From Anaerolineaceae bacterium UBA700 (lineage in GTDB: Bacteria; Chloroflexota; Anaerolineae; Anaerolineales; Anaerolineaceae): a DNA stretch of 6,959 bases. Made by a program: the position numbers and the translations under genes. This document shows, piece by piece, positions 1 to 6,959 of the stretch. A model generated the notes under the pieces. The model did no database searches and was not told the origin of the DNA. It saw only the letters and a list, made by a program, of their open reading frames with translations. The stretch covers positions 1 through 6,959 of the forward strand of contig DBMK01000018.1 in the NCBI GenBank assembly GCA_002298885.1, read 5' to 3'. Each line of letters starts with the position of its first letter. The first letter of the stretch is position 1.

Positions 1-350
1 TGGTTGTAGAGCGCCCCGTGCGGCTTGACGTGCGCCAGCTCCACTCCCGCCGCCCGGGCAAAGCCGGCCAGCGCCCCTACCTGGTAGAGCACGAACGCCT
101 CCACCTCCTCCGGGGCCAGGCTCATCTCGCGCCGCCCGAAGCCCTGCAGGTCGGGGTAGGCAGGGTGGGCCCCCACCCGCACCCCCGCCCGCACGCACAT
201 CCGCACCGTCGCATCCATCACCAGCCCGTCGCCGGCGTGAAAACCGCAGGCAATGTTGGCCGAGGTAATGTACGCCAGCATCGCCGCATCATCCCCCAAC
301 CGGTACGCCCCAAACGACTCGCCCATATCGCAATTCAAATCTACATTCAT
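1..350 (-). CDS. pxpA: 5-oxoprolinase subunit A (LamB/YcsF family), 3' end cut by window edge
   Basis: PxpA works with PxpB and PxpC in the cytoplasm to hydrolyse 5-oxo-L-proline (pyroglutamate) to L-glutamate at the cost of ATP. The 116 complete residues present match the start of the LamB/YcsF family almost motif by motif: DLNCDMGE (4-11), [10 protein letters not shown] (32-41), GAHPAYPD (60-67), GFGRR (70-74) and [10 protein letters not shown] (107-116). Family members are about 250 residues, so roughly half lies to the left of the window. The ATG at 348-350 is preceded by a GAGG Shine-Dalgarno-like sequence about seven bases upstream and starts exactly where the family starts. Its usual partner pxpC is on the same strand but about 5.7 kb upstream. 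The gap directly upstream holds a giant inverted repeat and a divergent RNA promoter. I saw no convincing promoter for pxpA itself. Identification is secure; participation in an intact 5-oxoprolinase is inferred. Confidence 0.96.
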
Positions 351-367
351 AGATAATCCTCAAGTCT

Positions 368-528
368 AAAGTCGGTCAGTCGATCAGTCTGTCAGTTTAA
401 CCACGAATTACGCCAATTGTTACGAATTGGTACGAATTTTTTAATAAGCTATTCGCGACAATTCGTCATCATTCGTGTAATTCGCGGACAAACTGACTGA
501 CTGATCGACTGAAATACTGACCGACTTT
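368..528. repeat. 161-base composite inverted repeat (giant imperfect hairpin)
   Basis: The two halves pair along nearly their whole length. The outer arms come from a GTCAGTC-type word family: 368-380 pairs with 516-528 (13 of 13), 381-388 with 500-507 (8 of 8) and 391-398 with 490-497 (8 of 8). The inner arms come from a different ACGAATTAC-type family: 401-417 with 471-487 (14 of 17), 422-429 with 459-466 (8 of 8) and 433-437 with 451-455 (5 of 5). The terminal loop is about 13 bases. It fills most of the space between pxpA and the divergent RNA promoter. It encodes no protein and carries no recognisable transposase ends. It could be a non-autonomous mobile element, a structured RNA or a processing/termination site; the sequence alone does not decide. 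Confidence 0.85.
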
Positions 529-559
529 CTCACTTGTCTATACGACATCGAAATCACCC

Positions 560-587
560 TTGACTTGTCCGATTCGGTTGCTATAAT
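560..587 (+). promoter_or_regulatory. Sigma-70-type promoter for the candidate RNA
   Basis: TTGACT at 560-565 (five of six against TTGACA) and TATAAT at 582-587 (six of six) are separated by 16 bases. Transcription would begin around 594-596, exactly where the sequence that pairs with the 3' end of the RNA begins (595). No open reading frame worth translating follows on the plus strand before the terminator at 908-957, so the promoter appears to serve a non-coding transcript. Confidence 0.75.
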
Positions 588-593
588 AATTGT

Positions 594-899
594 ACAGGGA
601 GTTCTGAGGAATTGGAAAGCTCCTCACTGCTCAGAAGCCAATGAAACGTTCGAGCCCGCCTTCGAAAGAATAATTGGGACGAAACGCCACAAAGGCCGAA
701 GATAACTAAGGTGTAGATGCTTCAAAAGGAAAACGGAAGGCTCTTCTCGAGGGAGAAGACCGGAAGCAACCCAAAGAAGCGGAGCCTTAGAAATCTCATG
801 CGAATGCGCACTCCTCAACACTGTAAAACCAGGACGAGAAGAAGGGCGGTTCAAATGGAACAGAGAGTGAACTGAAGGTTACTTGGAACCCCTGTTTTT
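594..899 (+). ncRNA. Candidate free-standing structured RNA of about 300 bases, family not recognised
   Basis: The segment starts at the predicted start site of a near-consensus promoter and ends in a U-rich run ahead of a strong terminator. Its ends pair: 595-599 with 890-894, then, past a bulged A600, 601-604 with 886-889, extendable with wobbles to 607/883. A nested central arm can form from 706-711/785-790 (CTAAGG/CCTTAG), 719-723/776-780 (GCTTC/GAAGC) and a hairpin at 739-761 (TCTTCTC/GAGAAGA plus two G-C pairs). A 3' domain can form from 809-813/865-869 and 821-824/860-863. Alternative 5' pairings exist (602-608/630-636 versus 606-610/621-625), and ATTGG at 611-615 can pair with CCAAT at 638-642. 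TTGGG at 674-678 can pair with CCCAA at 770-774 as a long-range contact. I do not see the signatures of RNase P RNA, tmRNA or SRP RNA, and it is long for 6S RNA. The helices are hand-drawn and lack covariation support. Confidence 0.6.
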
Positions 900-907
900 A
901 TTTAAAT

Positions 908-957
908 AAATGCGGTGTTTTCAGGCAGCGAGGCTGTCTGAAAACACCGCATTTTTT
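908..957. terminator. Strong intrinsic terminator, probably bidirectional
   Basis: A perfect 17-bp stem pairs 908-924 with 938-954, extended by four more pairs (925-928/934-937, one a G-U) around a CGAGG loop. On the plus strand it runs into six T residues (952-957), so it would end the candidate RNA. On the minus strand the stem begins immediately beside the hpt stop codon (956-958) and is followed by an A/T-rich tail (TTTATTTAAA when read on that strand), so it probably also ends the hpt unit. Confidence 0.9.
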
Positions 958-1543
958 ATCCCTGGCTTTTATGGCCTTTGAGTACGTCGGCTTTCAAAAG
1001 GCCGACGAAGGGCAAATTGCGGTATTTCTCCTGGTAGTCCAGCCCATAACCCACCACGAAGCGGTCAGGCAGGTCGAAGCCCTTGTACTTGAGCGGGGTC
1101 TCGATCAGGCGGCTGGTTGGCTTGTTGAACAGTACGCACACCTCCAGGCTGGCCGGCTGGCGGGCGCGCAGGCTGCGCAGCAGGTAATTGAGGGTCAGGC
1201 CGGTGTCGATGACGTCCTCCACAAAGAGCACGTGCCGCCCGGCAATGTTCGTCCCCAGGTCTTTCTCCAGGCGCACCAGCCCGTTGCGCCGCGTCTCGTT
1301 GGAATAGCTCGATACCGCCAGGAAATCCACCTCCAGGGGGATGGTGATGGCCCGCAGAAGGTCGGCCATGAAGATCACCACGCCCTTGAGCACCCCCAGC
1401 ATAAGCGGGTCGCGCCCGGCGTAGTCCGCCGAAATGGCCCGCCCCAGTTCGCTCACCCGCTGCTGCAGCTCCTCGGCCGAGATCAGCACTTCCTTGATCT
1501 CAGCTCCCAGCTCGCCGTAGGCCTCCAGTCCGCTGCGGTTCAT
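956..1543 (-). CDS. hpt: Hypoxanthine phosphoribosyltransferase
   Basis: The enzyme salvages hypoxanthine, and usually guanine, by transferring phosphoribose from PRPP to give IMP or GMP in the cytoplasm. The 195-residue product has the expected family layout: LKGVVIFMADLLR (52-64), SSYSNETRRNGLV (78-90, flexible loop) and the PRPP-binding loop LFVEDVIDTGLTL (106-118) with the acidic pair E109-D110. Beyond these are FNKPTSR (139-145, with the purine-contacting lysine K141) and FVVGYGLDYQEKYRNLPFVGLL (162-183). The frame is open further upstream, but this ATG is chosen because it gives the normal family length and overlaps the upstream stop codon as ATGA. That overlap implies translational coupling, and no strong ribosome binding site is visible. 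The stop abuts the terminator hairpin at 908-957. The N-terminal 20 residues are a little longer than in many homologues. Confidence 0.95.
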   Translation of the reverse strand: MNRSGLEAYGELGAEIKEVLISAEELQQRVSELGRAISADYAGRDPLMLGVLKGVVIFMADLLRAITIPLEVDFLAVSSYSNETRRNGLVRLEKDLGTNIAGRHVLFVEDVIDTGLTLNYLLRSLRARQPASLEVCVLFNKPTSRLIETPLKYKGFDLPDRFVVGYGLDYQEKYRNLPFVGLLKADVLKGHKSQG

Positions 1544-1926
1544 TGTCCGTTTTTCTTCTGGGCCGCAGTGCCCTGGATCTGGTCGGCGCTGTCGTACAGG
1601 CCGTATTTCACCATCAGGTCGCGCATCTCGCGCCGCTTCAGCAGCTTGACGTGCACGTGCGGGTACAGCTCCTGCATGCGCCGCACGCGGCGGTTCTTGT
1701 AGGTTGCCAGCTTGGGCCGCAGGGTGGTCAGCTCGATATAAAGGTCCTGCGACGGCAGGTAAAAATCGGGGGCGAACGCCTCCAGTACCGTGCCGTACTC
1801 GTCCCATTCCAGCGGAAAAGTACGCGGCTCGTACTCCCACTCGATGCCGTAAAAATCAAGGATCTTGGCGAACGTCTCTTCGGAAGGATGGACAAATTTT
1901 GGGTGGCTATGTTGCAAGGTGCTCAA
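1540..1926 (-). CDS. Small PD-(D/E)xK-nuclease-like protein coupled to hpt
   Basis: I do not recognise a named family. The 128-residue product resembles the core of a PD-(D/E)xK nuclease fold: an early helix with E16-E17, then FAPDFYLP (51-58) with D54, then YIELT (63-67) with E65. A basic helix follows (YKNRRVRRMQELYP, 76-89) and a strand (HVHVKLLKRR, 90-99). The catalytic lysine expected two residues after E65 is T67; K72 or K77 might substitute, or the protein may be inactive. The TTG start at 1924-1926 is supported by AAGGAAG six bases upstream; no ATG exists in the conserved N-terminal part. Its stop overlaps the hpt start by ATGA, so the two are probably co-translated. A function in DNA or RNA processing is only an inference from the fold-like motifs. 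Confidence 0.8.
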   Translation of the reverse strand: MSTLQHSHPKFVHPSEETFAKILDFYGIEWEYEPRTFPLEWDEYGTVLEAFAPDFYLPSQDLYIELTTLRPKLATYKNRRVRRMQELYPHVHVKLLKRREMRDLMVKYGLYDSADQIQGTAAQKKNGQ

Positions 1927-1952
1927 AGAGGGCTTCCTTTATATAGAAGGGG

Positions 1953-2062
1953 AGATTCACCACGCACCTGCCCTGGCGGGCGGTGCCAGGGGAGGCACAG
2001 AGACACTGAGAAAACCATAAAACCAGGTTTTCTCAGTGTCTCTGTGCCTCCGTGGTGAATCT
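1953..2062. repeat. Long inverted repeat with a hairpin inserted into one arm
   Basis: A perfect 26-bp stem pairs 1991-2016 with 2026-2051 around a nine-base loop. The pairing resumes outside it for 11 perfect base pairs (1953-1963 with 2052-2062), but the left arm is interrupted by 27 bases (1964-1990). These can fold into their own hairpin (1971-1977 with 1985-1991, CCCTGGC/GCCAGGG). The right arm reads through 'GTGCCTCCGTGGTGAAT'. Similar 'accacggaggcacagagacac' style words are, as I recall, dispersed in several bacterial genomes. The element lies between two same-strand genes and could act as an attenuator or processing site; it is not coding. Confidence 0.88.
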
Positions 2063-2067
2063 TCACT

Positions 2068-2634
2068 TTAACTCTTTTCCAACTGCTGTACGGCGCGGCA
2101 GATGATGTCAGTGGCGGTGTCGGCGCTGAGGTGGGCGGTGTTGATCACCAGGTCGTACAGGGCGGGATCGTTTACGTCCACGTTGTAAAAACGCTTGATG
2201 TAGCTCTTGCGCTCGCGGTCGCTGGCCCGCGCCTGGGCCCGGGCCGCCGCCAGCGAGGTGCGGTGGCGCTCGGCCAGGCGCTGCACGCGGATCTCGAAGG
2301 GGGCGATCATACGCACGTGCAGTGTGCCAGGATGATCGCGCAGCGCCAACTGACCGCCGCGGCCCACGATGACCACATTGCCCTGGTGGGCCAGCTCCTC
2401 CATCACGGTGTGCATGGCCTGCAGGTAAGCCTGGTATTCCTCGGCGCTGGGGGTGAGGCCCAACAGGTGCAGCTCGTCGATCACCGCCAGGGCCACCTCC
2501 GGCGCGCCGGCGCGCAGGGCAGCCTGGTTAATTAACTGGCGCATCATCACCCGGTACCCCAGGCGGTCCGCCACGGCATTCGCCACGATATTTCCCAGGC
2601 TGCCCCACTGGCGAGAAAGCGTGATCACAGCCAT
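2068..2634 (-). CDS. Cytidylate-kinase-like protein
   Basis: The 188-residue product belongs with the cytidylate kinase-like nucleotide kinases (AAK26 type), P-loop proteins distinct from classical Cmk. Visible features are a modified phosphate-binding loop SRQWGSLGNIVA (7-18), VIVGRGGQ (88-95), and a lid-like basic stretch SDRERKSYIKRFYNVD (138-153). The terminal YDLVINTAHLS (160-170) is typical of the group. Members are often annotated as cytidylate kinase, but the true substrate of these short stand-alone forms is generally untested, so a gene symbol is withheld. The ATG at 2632-2634 begins the family-typical 'ItlSRq' strand. The upstream RBS is weak (AAAGG about nine bases away). A TATAAT on the same strand at 2658-2663 may be its -10 element. 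Downstream, a long inverted repeat separates it from the nuclease-like gene and hpt. Confidence 0.88.
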   Translation of the reverse strand: MAVITLSRQWGSLGNIVANAVADRLGYRVMMRQLINQAALRAGAPEVALAVIDELHLLGLTPSAEEYQAYLQAMHTVMEELAHQGNVVIVGRGGQLALRDHPGTLHVRMIAPFEIRVQRLAERHRTSLAAARAQARASDRERKSYIKRFYNVDVNDPALYDLVINTAHLSADTATDIICRAVQQLEKS

Positions 2635-2657
2635 AACCGCTTTGCCTTTCTTAAAAT

Positions 2658-2663
2658 ATTATA
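2658..2663 (-). promoter_or_regulatory. Possible -10 element for the cytidylate-kinase-like gene
   Basis: Read on the minus strand this is a perfect TATAAT, 24 bases upstream of the start codon. The position where a -35 element should lie is occupied by the iterated repeat at 2664-2729 and gives only poor matches (GTTTCA at a 17-base spacing). If this promoter is real, the repeat supplies part of it. Confidence 0.4.
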
Positions 2664-2729
2664 GCGTGAAACGTAAAACGTGAAACGTGAAGCGGGACGA
2701 ATTCACGTTTCACGCTTCACGTTTCACGT
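2664..2729. repeat. Iterated ACGTGAA-word inverted repeat, copy 1
   Basis: The word ACGTGAA/ACGTAAA is repeated several times and then mirrored. The perfect part pairs 2678-2694 with 2713-2729 (17 of 17, ACGTGAAACGTGAAGCG), with a degenerate AATTC-containing loop between. It lies between the divergent cytidylate-kinase-like gene and padR. It shares its words with the copies at 4176-4234 and 5981-6019. Confidence 0.9.
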
Positions 2730-2742
2730 CCCAAACTACCCC

Positions 2743-2771
2743 TTGACATCCTTAATACATCGTGCTACTAT
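2743..2771 (+). promoter_or_regulatory. Sigma-70-type promoter of padR and the membrane gene
   Basis: TTGACA at 2743-2748 (perfect) and TACTAT at 2766-2771 (five of six against TATAAT) have the optimal 17-base spacing. The start site would fall near 2778, inside the palindrome at 2770-2805. A repressor bound there would block initiation directly. Confidence 0.82.
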
Positions 2772-2805
2772 ATATAGCGTAACGATATATCGTAATGCTT
2801 TATAT
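2770..2805. promoter_or_regulatory. Operator-like palindrome over the padR start site
   Basis: A perfect 12-base palindrome ACGATATATCGT (2782-2793) is flanked by arms that still match at nine of twelve positions, giving a 36-base near-palindrome. It overlaps the end of the -10 element and runs almost to the ribosome binding site. PadR-family repressors commonly bind such AT-rich dyads in their own promoters, so autoregulation by the downstream product is the natural reading; it is inferred. Confidence 0.65.
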
Positions 2806-2818
2806 ATAAGGAGGCGTC

Positions 2819-3172
2819 ATGAACCAACCCATCGAAACCCAACTGCCCCTCTCCGAGGTCAGCTTCTACATTCTGCTCTCCATGGCCAACGAACCTCGTC
2901 ACGGCTACGCCATCATGAAGGACGTTTCCGCCCTCAGCGGCGGGCGGATCGAGCTCTCCGCCGGCACGCTGTACGGCGCCCTCAAGCGCATGCTCGAGCA
3001 GGGTTGGATCGAACGCCTCGAGGACGATCGCGAGCTGGACGAGACCGGCCGCCCGCGCAAGGTCTACCGCCTGACTGCCCTTGGCCAGGGCGTGTTGAGC
3101 GCCGAGACCGAGCGCCTGCGCAGCCTGCTCGCCGCAGCCGCTCAACGCTCCCAGGGGACCCTGCCAGTATGA
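2819..3172 (+). CDS. PadR-family transcriptional regulator
   Basis: A cytoplasmic DNA-binding repressor of 117 residues, the length of the short PadR subgroup with a single C-terminal dimerisation helix. The winged helix shows the family signatures: FYILLSMANEPRHGYAIMKDV (16-36), the recognition region LSAGTLYGALKRMLEQGWIE (46-65), and the wing TGRPRKVYRLTALG (76-89). The helix at 92-110 would be the dimerisation helix. The ATG at 2819 is preceded by AAGGAGG (2808-2814) with a short four-base spacing. The promoter and palindromic operator lie directly upstream. The stop codon overlaps the next gene's start (ATGA at 3169-3172). That arrangement, a PadR regulator coupled to a membrane protein, is common and suggests the regulator controls its neighbour. 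The inducing ligand cannot be read from sequence. Confidence 0.95.
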   Translation: MNQPIETQLPLSEVSFYILLSMANEPRHGYAIMKDVSALSGGRIELSAGTLYGALKRMLEQGWIERLEDDRELDETGRPRKVYRLTALGQGVLSAETERLRSLLAAAAQRSQGTLPV

Positions 3173-4164
3173 AGGCCAACAATGCCTGGGTGGGTCTCTA
3201 CCGCCGCCTGATCCTCCTCTACCCCGCGGGCTTCCGCAGCGAGTTCGGCGCCGAGATGGTCTCCGTCTTCGCCGAAAAGCTGGCAGACGCCGGGCGGGGC
3301 GCCCCGTGGGTCGCCTGGCACGAGCTGGTCGACCTGCCGTTCAATCTTTTGCGTGAATACGTTCAGAATCCAGAGTTAAACATCATGTTCGAAAAAATTC
3401 TCACTCACCAAAAACATTCCCGCTGGCGCCAGGCAGGCGCCCTGGGATTTGCCATCGCTTTCGTCTTCCTCGAGCTGGTCATCGGCCTGGTGCAGATCGC
3501 CCAGAACAGCGCGTACGCCTATTCCAGTTGGCAGGCCGTTCTCATGCCCGCCGTGTTCAACCAGCCGGACGGCTCCGTCCAGGCGTCCCGGTTCAGCTTG
3601 ATCGGATTGGGCCTCCTGGCGCTGGCAGGGCTGGCAGCCGGACTGGTCATCAGCCGGGCCGAAAAGCCGGCCCACCCGCTGCGCTTTGGGCTGGCCGGCG
3701 CAGTGGGGATGCCGGCCGCCTACGCGGTCCTGGCCACCGGCTCCACCCTGCTGGCCTCGGCGGCGCCCCTGTCGCCGTATGTGCAGGCCTTCTTCAACAT
3801 TCTCTCCGGCGCCCTTTTCGGGGCGACAGCGGCCCTGCTGTTCGGACTGCTGGCGGGCAGCCCGCCCCGCCGCCTGCTGCGCCTGCTTCTGGCAGGCTTC
3901 TGGGGCTTCGTCCTGGCTGCCTTTGCCAGCATCCTGGTGAACCTGGGGCTCAACCTGGCGTGGGGGCTGATCGCCAAACTGATCGCAGCCCTCACGAACA
4001 CCTCCGCCGCCGCGCTCACCGGCCTGGTCGCCGGGCTGATTATCCACCTGCCGGTCAGCGCCGTCGCCGGCTGGGTCTTCGGCTCCTGGCTCGGTAACGA
4101 GATGGAACCCTCAGGCGCAGCCGGTCAGTCGATCAGTATGTCAGTCGGTCAGGTGATCAGTTAG
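3169..4164 (+). CDS. Polytopic membrane protein coupled to PadR, C-terminus supplied by a repeat
   Basis: Function unknown. The 331-residue product starts with a cytoplasmic prefix, LYRRLILLYPAGFRSEFGAEMVSVF (10-34), of a type often found in PadR-linked permeases and membrane proteins. About six or more hydrophobic segments follow: roughly 90-110, 142-162, 173-195, 207-229, 237-270 and 277-307. No ATP-binding or catalytic motif is visible. The ATG at 3169-3171 overlaps the padR stop, so translation is probably coupled; the frame is open further 5' but that part is the padR gene read in another frame. The last 13 or so residues (from about 319, GQSISMSVGQVIS) and the stop are encoded by a GTCAGTC-type repeat also found in the hairpin at 368-528. 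The original C-terminus has therefore probably been replaced. PadR repression is likely. Confidence 0.88.
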   Translation: MKANNAWVGLYRRLILLYPAGFRSEFGAEMVSVFAEKLADAGRGAPWVAWHELVDLPFNLLREYVQNPELNIMFEKILTHQKHSRWRQAGALGFAIAFVFLELVIGLVQIAQNSAYAYSSWQAVLMPAVFNQPDGSVQASRFSLIGLGLLALAGLAAGLVISRAEKPAHPLRFGLAGAVGMPAAYAVLATGSTLLASAAPLSPYVQAFFNILSGALFGATAALLFGLLAGSPPRRLLRLLLAGFWGFVLAAFASILVNLGLNLAWGLIAKLIAALTNTSAAALTGLVAGLIIHLPVSAVAGWVFGSWLGNEMEPSGAAGQSISMSVGQVIS

Positions 4165-4170
4165 TCGGTC
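4122..4170 (+). repeat. GTCAGTC-word repeat forming the 3' end of a gene
   Basis: The first 24 bases match 373-396 with one mismatch; the shared core is CGGTCAGTCGATCAGT. Further GTCGGTC and GATCAGT words follow. Unlike the copy at 368-528, no mirrored partner is present; the unrelated iterated hairpin at 4176-4234 begins about five bases later. The stop codon of the membrane protein (4162-4164) lies inside it. Confidence 0.85.
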
Positions 4171-4175
4171 GTAAA

Positions 4176-4234
4176 ACGTAAAACGTGAAGCGTGAAACGT
4201 GAATTAATCACGTTTCACGCTTCACGTTTTACGT
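4176..4234. repeat. Iterated ACGTGAA-word hairpin, copy 2 (27-bp perfect stem)
   Basis: 4176-4202 pairs with 4208-4234 at all 27 positions around the loop ATTAA. The arm is built from ACGTAAA, ACGTGAA and GCGTGAA words like those at 2664-2729. It sits between the convergent stop codons at 4164 and 4243. It could end transcription from both sides, though the flanking tails are only weakly T-rich, so terminator function is uncertain. Confidence 0.93.
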
Positions 4235-4242
4235 GCTTTAGC

Positions 4243-5820
4243 CTAATTCTCCGCCGGCCAGAATACGGCATTGTCGAACAGCACCTTAAAGCCCTCGTCG
4301 GGGATGTCCTGATTGGTCATTATCATCAGTCCCAGCCGCCCCGCGCCAAAATGGGCCATCTGCGGATCACTGATCGGGGTCTGCTTCTCAGCGTTGATGG
4401 TCAGGATCACCTGGTTATCCTGGCATGACAGGCCAATGCGATTCTTCTCCCCGGCTTTTCTCAAACCGTCTGCCGGCAGCAAGCCCGGCTCGGTCAAGGC
4501 GGTGACATCTTCCCCTTCAACCCTCAACACACTGTATTGGCCCCGGAACGGGTCGATGAATACCACGTAATGTTTTGTGTCTGACTGCCAACGGCAGACC
4601 AGGCCATACATGCCTGCTGCCGAGGTATCGAACCCGGAAGGCACCTGGAAGTCTACCTCACCCCGCGTTGGGAAGTAGCTCAAAGGCGGGAATGATACAT
4701 AGATCTTGTCCGGCGAATTGAGCTGGATGGCATAGGCCCCATTTTCGAGACCCGCGGTTGTATTGGCCTCTTTTCTCGCAGCCCAGCCCTGATTACGACT
4801 GAAATCATCACTGAACGACGTGCGTGGCGCCGGCATGATGCCGATTACAGCATCAACAGCTTGCGGAAAATATGTTGGTCCAAGCAAGAAAAAAGCCATC
4901 ACACCCAACACGCCTGCAGCAAATACGGCTCCACCCATCCCAATTCGCACTCGCCTTGACCTTCCGGTCAGCAGAAGAACCATCGACAGGGCAAAAGAGC
5001 TCCAAATGATAATATCCAAATAGCTTCCTATCGTCAGGTCGTGCCAAATATTGAATGCGCACATGAACAGCGAATAGGTCAGGGCGGTCCGCCTGGATTT
5101 TTGCTTTCCATGCAGCAGATTGATAACGGCCAAAATCGCTAACACCAGGCCGATACCAATGGTGGCTTGCCCCCGGAACGCCTGCCAGACCAGGATCAAA
5201 ATCACGATCCCATACAGACCTGCCGCCACGCGCATGGCCAGCTTATCGCTGCCATCCTGGCGCATCGGGTCCTGGAGATGCTCGTCCAACTGCGGCGACG
5301 GGTTCCTGGTCGCCTCCTCATTCAGGATCTCCCGGGCCAGGTCTGGCAATCCCAGCCTGCGCAGGTCATCAGCCTGACTCAGCACCTGCTGGATATCTGG
5401 CGTTTGCGTCGCGGCCTCTCCGGGGGCATGCACAGCGGCGAACTGGCGCGCCAGGTTTTCGGCGAAAGGCACCCAATAGCCTGAGGAGGTGAAGGGCACG
5501 CTGACATCAACGGCCGTTTCCGAAAATCCGCGGCGCACAAAGATGCGCATGACCGGCTTCGACCCGCGCTTTGCGGCGTCAAACGTGATGGCACTGATGT
5601 ATGTTATTTGGATAGAGATTGCCCCTCCGGCCTGTCCTTTCTGGACGAGGACAATACGCCGCCGGGTCAACCCGATCAAGTACTCCTGTGTAGCAAGGAA
5701 CGGCCCAAACTTACCCTGGGTATATTCCAGCAGCGTTTCGCCCGATTCCAGCACAGCCTCGAGCGCCGCTCGCACCTTCCGGTCGCGATCGGTCTCATTT
5801 TGATGTATAAAGAAGGTCAT
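4243..5820 (-). CDS. PH-like / transmembrane / jelly-roll (LamG-like) protein of unknown function
   Basis: The 525-residue product has three parts. Residues about 16-130 resemble a bacterial PH-like domain (GETLLEYTQGKFGPFLATQEYLIGLTRRRIVLV, 27-59). Residues about 140-185 form a polar linker with a helix, DIQQVLSQADDLRRLGLPDLAREIL. A membrane block has four or five segments, roughly 197-213, 219-237, 246-262, 267-285 and 294-313. The C-terminal part (about 335-525), starting SFSDDFSRNQGWAARKE and ending FDNAVFWP, looks like a concanavalin-like beta-sandwich of the kind that binds polysaccharide. No catalytic residues can be named. The ATG at 5818-5820 is chosen over an in-frame start 15 codons upstream because GGAGAG lies nine bases before it. 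It stands alone between convergent and same-strand neighbours. A role in envelope sensing or glycan contact is inferred from architecture only. Confidence 0.85.
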   Translation of the reverse strand: MTFFIHQNETDRDRKVRAALEAVLESGETLLEYTQGKFGPFLATQEYLIGLTRRRIVLVQKGQAGGAISIQITYISAITFDAAKRGSKPVMRIFVRRGFSETAVDVSVPFTSSGYWVPFAENLARQFAAVHAPGEAATQTPDIQQVLSQADDLRRLGLPDLAREILNEEATRNPSPQLDEHLQDPMRQDGSDKLAMRVAAGLYGIVILILVWQAFRGQATIGIGLVLAILAVINLLHGKQKSRRTALTYSLFMCAFNIWHDLTIGSYLDIIIWSSFALSMVLLLTGRSRRVRIGMGGAVFAAGVLGVMAFFLLGPTYFPQAVDAVIGIMPAPRTSFSDDFSRNQGWAARKEANTTAGLENGAYAIQLNSPDKIYVSFPPLSYFPTRGEVDFQVPSGFDTSAAGMYGLVCRWQSDTKHYVVFIDPFRGQYSVLRVEGEDVTALTEPGLLPADGLRKAGEKNRIGLSCQDNQVILTINAEKQTPISDPQMAHFGAGRLGLMIMTNQDIPDEGFKVLFDNAVFWPAEN

Positions 5821-5915
5821 TAAAAAATTCTCTCCGCTGTAGATTTCCCCCCCGGCATAGCTCAATCTGGCATCCCTCTTGCTGTTCTCGCCGGGACAGA
5901 TTTTATTTCACATTA

Positions 5916-5943
5916 ATAATACCTTATCTTTATAAATCTCCAA
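5916..5943 (-). promoter_or_regulatory. Possible promoter of the PH-like/jelly-roll gene
   Basis: On the minus strand, TATTAT (5916-5921, five of six) follows TTGGAG (5938-5943, three of six) at a 16-base spacing, in an AT-rich block that contrasts with the GC-rich genes. The leader to the start codon would be about 90 bases. The -35 match is poor. Confidence 0.35.
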
Positions 5944-5980
5944 TATATTTTACATAAAGATTTCAGGACTGCGCTTAGAT

Positions 5981-6019
5981 TATGAAACGTGAAGGGTGAA
6001 ACATGAATTCACGTTTCAC
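5981..6019. repeat. Iterated ACGTGAA-word repeat, copy 3, overlapping the pxpC stop
   Basis: Starts with ATGAAACGTGAAGGGTGAAA-type words and contains a 24-base palindrome (5996-6019) with one mismatched pair, centred on GAATTC. It uses the same words as the copies at 2664-2729 and 4176-4234. The pxpC stop codon (6016-6018 on the minus strand) is inside the palindrome. Confidence 0.88.
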
Positions 6020-6959
6020 ATCTCCTGCAGTCCCCGGACAATCCTTCTCCACTCTACCTGGGCCTGCTCCACGCTCACGGCCCGGAAGCGCACCCGGCCG
6101 CGGCCGGGCGGGCACTGGGCCAGCAGCGGCAGGCTGGCGCCGGTCACCACGCCGATCTTGGGGTAGCCGCCGGCCGTCTGGTGGTCGGCCATCAGTACGA
6201 TCGGCTGCCCGTCGCCCGGCACCTGCACCGCTCCCAGCGGGATGCCCTCCGATAGAATGTCCACCCCGCTCCGGTGAGCGACTGCCGGCCCGGCCAGGCG
6301 GTAGCCCATGCGGTCGCAGGCGGGGGACAGGGTGTATTCGCCTTCAAGAAACGCCGCCTGCCCCGCCTCTGTGAAAGCGTCCGCCTGCGGCCCCAGCACA
6401 ACCTCCACCTCCACCCGGTCAGCGTAGGCCGGCCGCAATCCCCCGGGGAGCTCCCGGCCCGCCCGCTCGTATAATTGGGACGCTTCCCCCAGCTCCAGCG
6501 AGTCGCCTTCCTGCAGCGCTCGTCCCTCCAACCCGCCGAACCCGCCGCGCAGGTAGGTGGCGCGCGAGCCCATCACTGGAGCCACATCGACGCCGCCGCT
6601 GAAGGCCAGGTAACTCCAGCCAGCGCCTTCGATAGGGAGCAGCGCTACAACCTCGCCCCGGCGCACCCAGGCCGCCATCCAAAGCGGAAGCTGCCGCCCG
6701 CCAACTTCCAGCACGAAGCCGCGCCCGCCGGCGGCCACCAGGCATTCCCCCTCCACCCGCAGCGCCGGCCCCAGCAGGGCGCATTCCAGCCCCGCCGCTC
6801 CCGGCGGGTTGCCCACCAGAGCGTTCGCCGCCATCAGCGCCACCCGGTCCATCGCCCCGCATCCCGGCACTCCCAGGCGCTCATAGCCCACCCGTCCGAG
6901 GTCCTGGACGGTGGTGAGAAAGCCGGGGGAAAGGACTTTAAAGAAGTTTTTTTGGGTCA
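6016..6959 (-). CDS. pxpC: 5-oxoprolinase subunit C (KipA / biotin-dependent carboxyltransferase-like family)
   Basis: PxpC joins PxpB and PxpA in ATP-dependent cleavage of 5-oxoproline to glutamate. The frame is open to the right edge: reading in from the edge gives TQKNFFKVLSPGFLTTVQDLGR, the family N-terminus. The last two bases are 'TG' of what is most likely an ATG whose first base is at 6960. Numbered from there, motifs are TTVQDLGR (16-23), GVPGCGAMD (30-38), LVGNPPGAAGLE (48-59) and YLAFSGGVDVAPVMGSRATYL (117-137). The strongest block spans 237-270, including PGDGQPIVLMADHQTAGGYPKIG. Length would be 314 residues, normal for the family. A GTG at 6889-6891 also opens a frame but would discard conserved sequence. 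The 3' end runs into an iterated repeat. pxpB is expected just to the right, and pxpA follows only about 5.7 kb downstream. Confidence 0.95.
   Translation of the reverse strand, partial: TQKNFFKVLSPGFLTTVQDLGRVGYERLGVPGCGAMDRVALMAANALVGNPPGAAGLECALLGPALRVEGECLVAAGGRGFVLEVGGRQLPLWMAAWVRRGEVVALLPIEGAGWSYLAFSGGVDVAPVMGSRATYLRGGFGGLEGRALQEGDSLELGEASQLYERAGRELPGGLRPAYADRVEVEVVLGPQADAFTEAGQAAFLEGEYTLSPACDRMGYRLAGPAVAHRSGVDILSEGIPLGAVQVPGDGQPIVLMADHQTAGGYPKIGVVTGASLPLLAQCPPGRGRVRFRAVSVEQAQVEWRRIVRGLQEM

Follow-up and report, generated by a model that had tools for sequence, protein, structure and literature searches.

The stretch of DNA analysed here, referred to as the window, comprises 6,959 nucleotides (nt) of Anaerolineaceae bacterium UBA700 (GCA_002298885.1, contig DBMK01000018.1, positions 1 to 6,959 of the forward strand). 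It carries at positions 594–897 of the plus strand an RNA that probably belongs to an Anaerolineae (Chloroflexota) family of structured RNAs with independent transcription, likely to be stable and trans-acting and undescribed in the sources searched. A covariance model (R1) trained on 12 further loci from Anaerolineae, with the window left out, matches this segment over its full length (model positions 1–329) with 119.2 bits and an E-value of 1.1e-30, where E-values of such home-made models are to be taken as rough. A sigma-70-type promoter, TTGACT-16-TATAAT with a TG ahead of the −10 element, is located at 560–587 of the plus strand with 11 of 12 consensus matches, which makes abundance of the RNA plausible at most. 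The start of the RNA would lie at about 594, and its 3′ end would be given either by a U-run at 896–903 or by the terminator hairpin at 905–957. This hairpin, to which no strand is assigned, lies between the RNA and a convergent gene named hpt (959–1543, minus strand); its stem at 910–952 has at least 20 pairs (the count had a ceiling of 20) followed by TTTTT, and the inverted repeat 905–929/933–957 is 92% complementary. An earlier note, made from the letters alone, had described a free-standing non-coding RNA with a near-consensus promoter and a long terminator stem, and both signals are present as described. The name hpt is an assignment by the earlier note and by us; the Pfam evidence is a match to PF00156 (phosphoribosyltransferase, E 9.4e-21), and the gene is the convergent neighbor in most of the homologous loci examined.

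Using hpt as an anchor we collected 80 loci, mostly from Chloroflexota and chiefly from Anaerolineae according to their record titles. With the RNA of the window as query, nhmmer returned 27 matches at E ≤10, in 27 of the 80 loci, and iterated profiles found both ends of the RNA as a pair in 42, while R1 matched 53 loci at E ≤1 and 52 at E ≤0.01 (12 of them training loci). A second covariance model (R2), built from ten short forms of 176–192 nt, covers other lineages and gives a weak and partial match to the window (12.4 bits, E 0.02). A sequence-only model (R3) scored lower than R1 in 45 of the 46 non-training sequences matched by R1 (84.6 against 119.2 bits in the window), the exception being locus L061 (23.4 against 21.5 bits for R1); this comparison is just supportive, because the models differ also in effective sequence number. 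The length of the unit ranges from 164 to 361 nt among the 86 sequences listed, the short forms being approximately 175–192 nt.

The predicted fold, all on the plus strand, proceeds inward from P1 through P1′, a purine-rich loop and P2 to a branched region containing P5. P1 is the pairing of the two ends of the RNA (594–608 with 882–895) around a conserved bulged A at position 600, and four of its pairs that were checked, from 597–892 to 607–883, have pair probabilities of 0.90–1.00. In P1′ the AAUU of 610–613 pairs with the GGUU of 877–880 (probabilities 0.78–0.80), including two near-invariant U-G pairs that are kept in 52 and 48 of 58 sequences; the strand of the RNA is fixed because these pairs would become A-C mismatches on the opposite strand. 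GGAA and GAA are conserved adjoining P1′ in the structure-blind alignment described below, and in our own reading the GGAA of 614–617 and the UGAA at about 873–876 would form the two sides of an internal loop. The 5′ strand of P2 lies at 618–629 (partner about 861–873) with an ambiguous register in the window, whose row in the model has 623–628/862–867 with one A-A mismatch. P5 pairs CUAAGG ... GCUUC (706–723) with GAAGC ... CCUUAG (776–790), the family form being UCUC..GC..GCUUC with GAAGC..GC..GAGA, and four pairs checked in its helices 706–711/785–790 and 719–723/776–780 have a probability of at least 0.998; the end helix and these two are the helices that had been drawn in the earlier note. 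Membership in the family was judged by a full-length match to R1 (P1 with its bulge, P1′, P2 and P5), promoter and convergent hpt being usual and not required. The window matches at full length, and the family helix P8 fits it poorly, with one C-C mismatch among three pairs. In locus L059 (3863–4095, minus strand), a weak model match of 14.4 bits, the lower stem of P1 appears by eye to be wholly swapped (UUACG/CGUAA) with the bulged A retained.

The folding energy of the plus strand is only modestly unusual (z = −2.37, 2 of 100 shuffles equally stable) and the opposite strand is more stable (z = −3.67, 0 of 100 shuffles), so that folding energy was dismissed as proof and comparison across homologues was used instead. 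Such a modest energy, together with the overlap of the RNA by two short open reading frames on the plus strand, the only ones there (565–705, 46 amino acids; 717–875, 52 amino acids), and by one of 76 amino acids on the minus strand, is what one would expect of a small-protein mRNA or of a chance inverted structure. However, the two plus-strand frames show no protein conservation among the homologues, their similarity being limited to 10–19 residues at the 5′ end over the promoter and P1, and protein coding was dismissed for both, in agreement with the non-coding character proposed earlier. Many length changes and strong covariation also argue against this explanation, which we consider practically negligible.

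Compensatory changes were examined in three ways. The structure-blind alignment (A1) comprises 20 sequences, of which at least 11 rows are training loci. Both-side changes occur in 24 of its 38 pairs, a number reached by none of 500 shuffles (shuffled mean 14.9), and 84.7% of the cells are paired versus 39–56% when the partners are slid; P2 is badly aligned there (51.9% paired). When 46 sequences not used for training were compared, 31 of 40 pairs covaried and 93.3% were paired, in an alignment that was fitted to the model and hence leans towards it. Across the family, both-side changes are found in all seven model pairs of P2 and in all 11 pairs of P5. The third approach was a tree-based null with 75 distinct sequences, 40 simulated alignments and 9870 column pairs, from which repeats and ten weak loci were dropped (L079, L059, L053, L141, L142, L144, L044, L135, L138, and L139). 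Of the 575 columns only the 144 that are occupied in at least 75% of the sequences were used, and because of this threshold the helices absent from short forms were hardly testable. The P1 pairs 595–894 and 602–888 exceed every pair of the 40 tree simulations, and six of the nine top pairs lie in P1, among them 599–890 at E 0.1; the remaining top pairs outside P1 have E ≥0.7 and are inconsistent with the structure. Taken at the level of sequence comparison, these results support P1, P2 and P5 as helices backed by compensatory changes, with P1 passing the tree-based null. Homologues and compensatory changes had been put forward as a check in the earlier note, and relatives are indeed present in dozens of Anaerolineae genomes with such changes in these three helices.

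We compared the RNA with the 4227 models of Rfam 15, taking the gathering score as the criterion. The window gave 22 matches at E ≤5, none over the cut-off and none inside 594–897, and the segment 560–910 gave four weak matches at E ≤10 (12–15 bits against cut-offs of 40–104), the best of them to HIV RRE (E 0.15, 12.3 bits against a cut-off of 104). Scans of five homologous loci, of eleven more and of the dimer at 10500–11300 of L064 gave only matches below the cut-off, short forms included. Scans of L068, L079 and L059 showed a transfer-messenger RNA (tmRNA) in L079, away from the RNA.

A divergent form of 6S, RNase P, signal recognition particle (SRP), tmRNA or raiA/ModT could still be imagined: the size is like that of raiA (209 model positions), the ends pair as in 6S RNA, and the 6S model RF00013 (187 positions) is near the short forms in length. 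On the contrary, most of 20 carrier genomes have 6S, RNase P and SRP genes apart from it. 6S exceeds its cut-off in 16 of the 20, and R1 gives no match (E ≤1) at any of these 6S loci; the long form of our RNA also differs from 6S in being branched. RNase P (RF00010) is over the cut-off in 16 of the 20 carriers, with any match in 17, and SRP RNA (RF00169) is found in 19, and wherever the coordinates of the RNA are known the RNase P and SRP loci are on other contigs or distant. ARAGORN and Rfam found no tmRNA in the window, the 20 carriers not having been searched for it, and in L079 a tmRNA gene (367–791, plus strand; RF00023, 150.7 bits) lies apart from the RNA on a short contig that also carries hpt. 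raiA/ModT (RF03072) has no match to the RNA in the window and is over the cut-off in 0 of 20 carriers; weak raiA matches (E ≤10, best 0.25) occur in 14 of the 20 carriers versus 6 of 14 control genomes, and in the nine of these carriers with known RNA coordinates they lie elsewhere than the RNA. A hidden member of one of these known families is therefore extremely improbable, as the earlier note had supposed for RNase P, tmRNA, SRP and 6S.

The likeness to raiA/ModT, also called ARRPOF and of unsettled molecular function, consists in a structured non-coding RNA of similar size with a conserved promoter. raiA/ModT has eight predicted paired regions and a conserved sigA promoter, and its consensus in C. 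difficile measures 215 nt; the abstract of that study names Bacillota first, and the term “Chloroflex” is absent from its main text (PMC11706538). One RNA motif, Chloroflexi-1 (RF01698), has been described from Chloroflexi, with an entry for Chloroflexus aggregans and an accession that is an Rfam family (PMC2864571), but our Rfam scans gave no RF01698 match to the RNA. Literature searches, mostly of open-access main texts without supplements, gave no description of such an RNA among the matches listed, and a term search of the main texts of two structured-RNA surveys, which covered 26 and 50 bacterial genomes, found neither Anaerolinea nor Chloroflex named. The suggestion that the RNA might be new has held against Rfam, and we rate the family as new at the level of RNA families, the broader kind, an orphan structured bacterial RNA, being already known.

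Larger genome sets were scanned by scoring the best few candidates per genome with stricter filters. In the class of Longilinea, R1 matched 32 of 249 genomes at E ≤0.01 with one match each, and R2 matched 27, of which eight are not among the R1 matches and a few are weak (E 0.002–0.004). In the family to which G013, the genome that contains L001, belongs, 29 of 121 genomes had an R1 match, one each. R1 further matched 7 of 22 genomes chosen mostly for an hpt locus without R1 match (three of the seven at E 0.045–0.44), and R2 matched 3 of 301 genomes of the phylum, one of them strongly. These counts are lower bounds, because only the best few candidates were scored and because R2 detects weak copies next to hpt at L053 and L059, whose genomes R1 scores as empty. 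An exact scan of the class for the 3′-end motif hit 9 of 199 genomes and is much less sensitive than the models. Three named isolates, Longilinea arvoryzae, Bellilinea caldifistulae and Ornatilinea apprima, are among the carriers. Viral copies were dismissed: one contig in IMG/VR has an exact motif match, lacks a model match and looks coding by eye. In L068, a metagenome-assembled genome titled Dehalococcoidia, a P1-like element with a U-run is visible by eye behind hpt (2765–2975, minus strand). Neither R1 nor R2 matches L068, and when 148 genomes of its class were searched at the DNA level, the matches were L068 itself and eight short chance-looking ones, none with hpt in the flank; the element could be a distant relative and is a putative lead.

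The relation to hpt was examined in 90 loci, 53 chosen through hpt and 37 found through the RNA, where some of the latter repeat genomes of the first set and one (L142) is a weak match. In 71 of the 90 a convergent hpt lies within 300 bases of the 3′ end of the RNA, and so does a convergent hpt in 24 of the 37 RNA-found loci. Such proximity, even with 53 of the 90 loci selected by hpt, is what would suggest a cis element, namely an antisense or 3′-end device that controls or terminates the convergent hpt transcript. Yet the RNA and hpt do not overlap, hpt is 1.8–3.5 kb away in four loci, the RNA is on the other side of the nearest hpt in two (one of these, L046, has a second hpt), and in 13 of the 90, all among the 37 RNA-found loci, the flanking DNA (up to about 1.5 kb on each side) contains no hpt. 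In addition, three genomes whose hpt locus has no R1 match (L003, L004, L076) carry the RNA elsewhere (L117, L180, and L114), each copy with an 11/12 promoter 8–9 bases upstream. Displaced copies with their own strong promoter favor action in trans, which is most likely how the RNA would work, and we regard a cis element of hpt as very unlikely. That the RNA is trans-acting and not a leader had been predicted in the earlier note, and its retention in genomes where it has left hpt agrees with this.

Independent transcription is also indicated by the promoters of the homologues. We surveyed 85 mutually non-independent sequences with sufficient upstream DNA, the window included, omitting repeats and L017, which is cut at a contig end. 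A promoter of at least 9/12 ending 5–9 bases ahead of the RNA is found in 46 of the 85, against 3.1% of base shuffles, so many homologues share the promoter claimed for the window. In 23 of the remaining 39 a promoter scoring 10/12 or better lies at 14–140 bases (a score reached by 0–6 of 100 shuffles), which would leave a 5′ extension, and 16 have neither. Long 5′ extensions seem to be present in the short-form lineages L046, L058, L062, L069, L124 and L133, and some look alike by eye; L058, L062 and L069 have an 11/12 promoter 136–140 bases upstream. Perhaps the 5′ extension of these lineages is an extra domain.

Two loci, L064 (10620–11165, minus strand) and L061 (1515–2130, minus strand), contain two RNA units arranged head to tail behind hpt, with a spacing of 267–273 bases and framed, by eye, by one promoter-like sequence ahead of them and one U-run after them. 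The units are 70–79% (L061) and 88–93% (L064) identical in aligned blocks. Several GNRA-type loops per unit are seen in both loci by eye and in single-sequence folds. The RNA shares with OLE, ROOL and GOLLD that they are large structured bacterial RNAs, and two of its own loci encode a tandem dimer; it differs in lacking an Rfam match and, given the sizes of those RNAs, in having much smaller units. For an oligomer of the OLE type, a homodimer in solution, the tandem gene copies of L061 and L064 are the only hint, and they suggest that the RNA may self-associate.

How might such an RNA work? It would be a stable RNA acting in trans, in which P1, the tandem U-G pairs of P1′ and the purine-rich loop would together make an end-to-end rod that shields the termini and offers an invariant surface where, most likely, a protein docks. 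Distal to the rod, the branched part of approximately 110 to 300 bases, depending on the lineage, would be a scaffold that different lineages have elaborated, extended at the 5′ end or duplicated. By analogy, we infer a scaffold or protein-binding RNA in the style of raiA/ModT or OLE, with no detected kinship to either. A more specific and rather doubtful version is a new class of RNA scaffolds in Chloroflexota that works as a pair, in which one unit would associate with itself through the branched domain in most genomes, two units would be fused into a tandem transcript in some lineages, and the invariant P1/P1′ rod would dock a dedicated protein. A free-standing gene with its own promoter and terminator, conserved across genomes, would also suit a base-pairing regulator, in which an exposed seed on a structured body would pair with mRNAs as in trans-encoded small RNAs. 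This alternative appears unlikely, since the near-invariant columns are mostly in the paired ends and short purine-rich stretches rather than in one long unpaired seed, and since RNAs of that kind do not usually have this size, such branching or so strict a pairing of the ends.

Several observations weigh against a trans-acting structured RNA family of this kind. A minority of the genomes is positive in each of the sets counted above, and one R2-positive genome has two matches. The frequent linkage with hpt would equally suit a local role. In the tree-based null only two pairs are clearly significant, the third standing at E 0.1; P2 and P5 are not prominent among the 75 sequences, and the pair 613–881, one of the top five, conflicts with the structure. 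The mechanism itself is inferred from the anatomy of the RNA.

The remainder of the window holds further features. A long imperfect inverted repeat lies at 368–528 between a LamB/YcsF gene and the promoter of the RNA, with 62-base arms of 81% and 29-base arms of 83%. Adjoining hpt, a small protein of 128 amino acids without Pfam match is encoded at 1543–1926 of the minus strand, and it is near hpt in most loci examined, including loci where the RNA is kilobases away. Intergenic inverted repeats at 1991–2051, 2662–2738, 4170–4234 and about 5982–6020 (the last by eye) are 78–100% complementary, belong to the GTGAAACGTGAA type and another type, and gave sub-threshold microRNA matches in Rfam; they look like dispersed palindromic elements.

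In our judgement, it is uncommon for a bacterial RNA family of such a size to show strong covariation and yet have no known relatives, and earlier families of the kind, such as raiA and OLE, opened questions of their own. With its models, helices and promoter defined and three named isolates among its carriers, the present family is accessible to direct tests at the bench, and the tandem-dimer genes offer an unusual handle on a possible self-association of the RNA.
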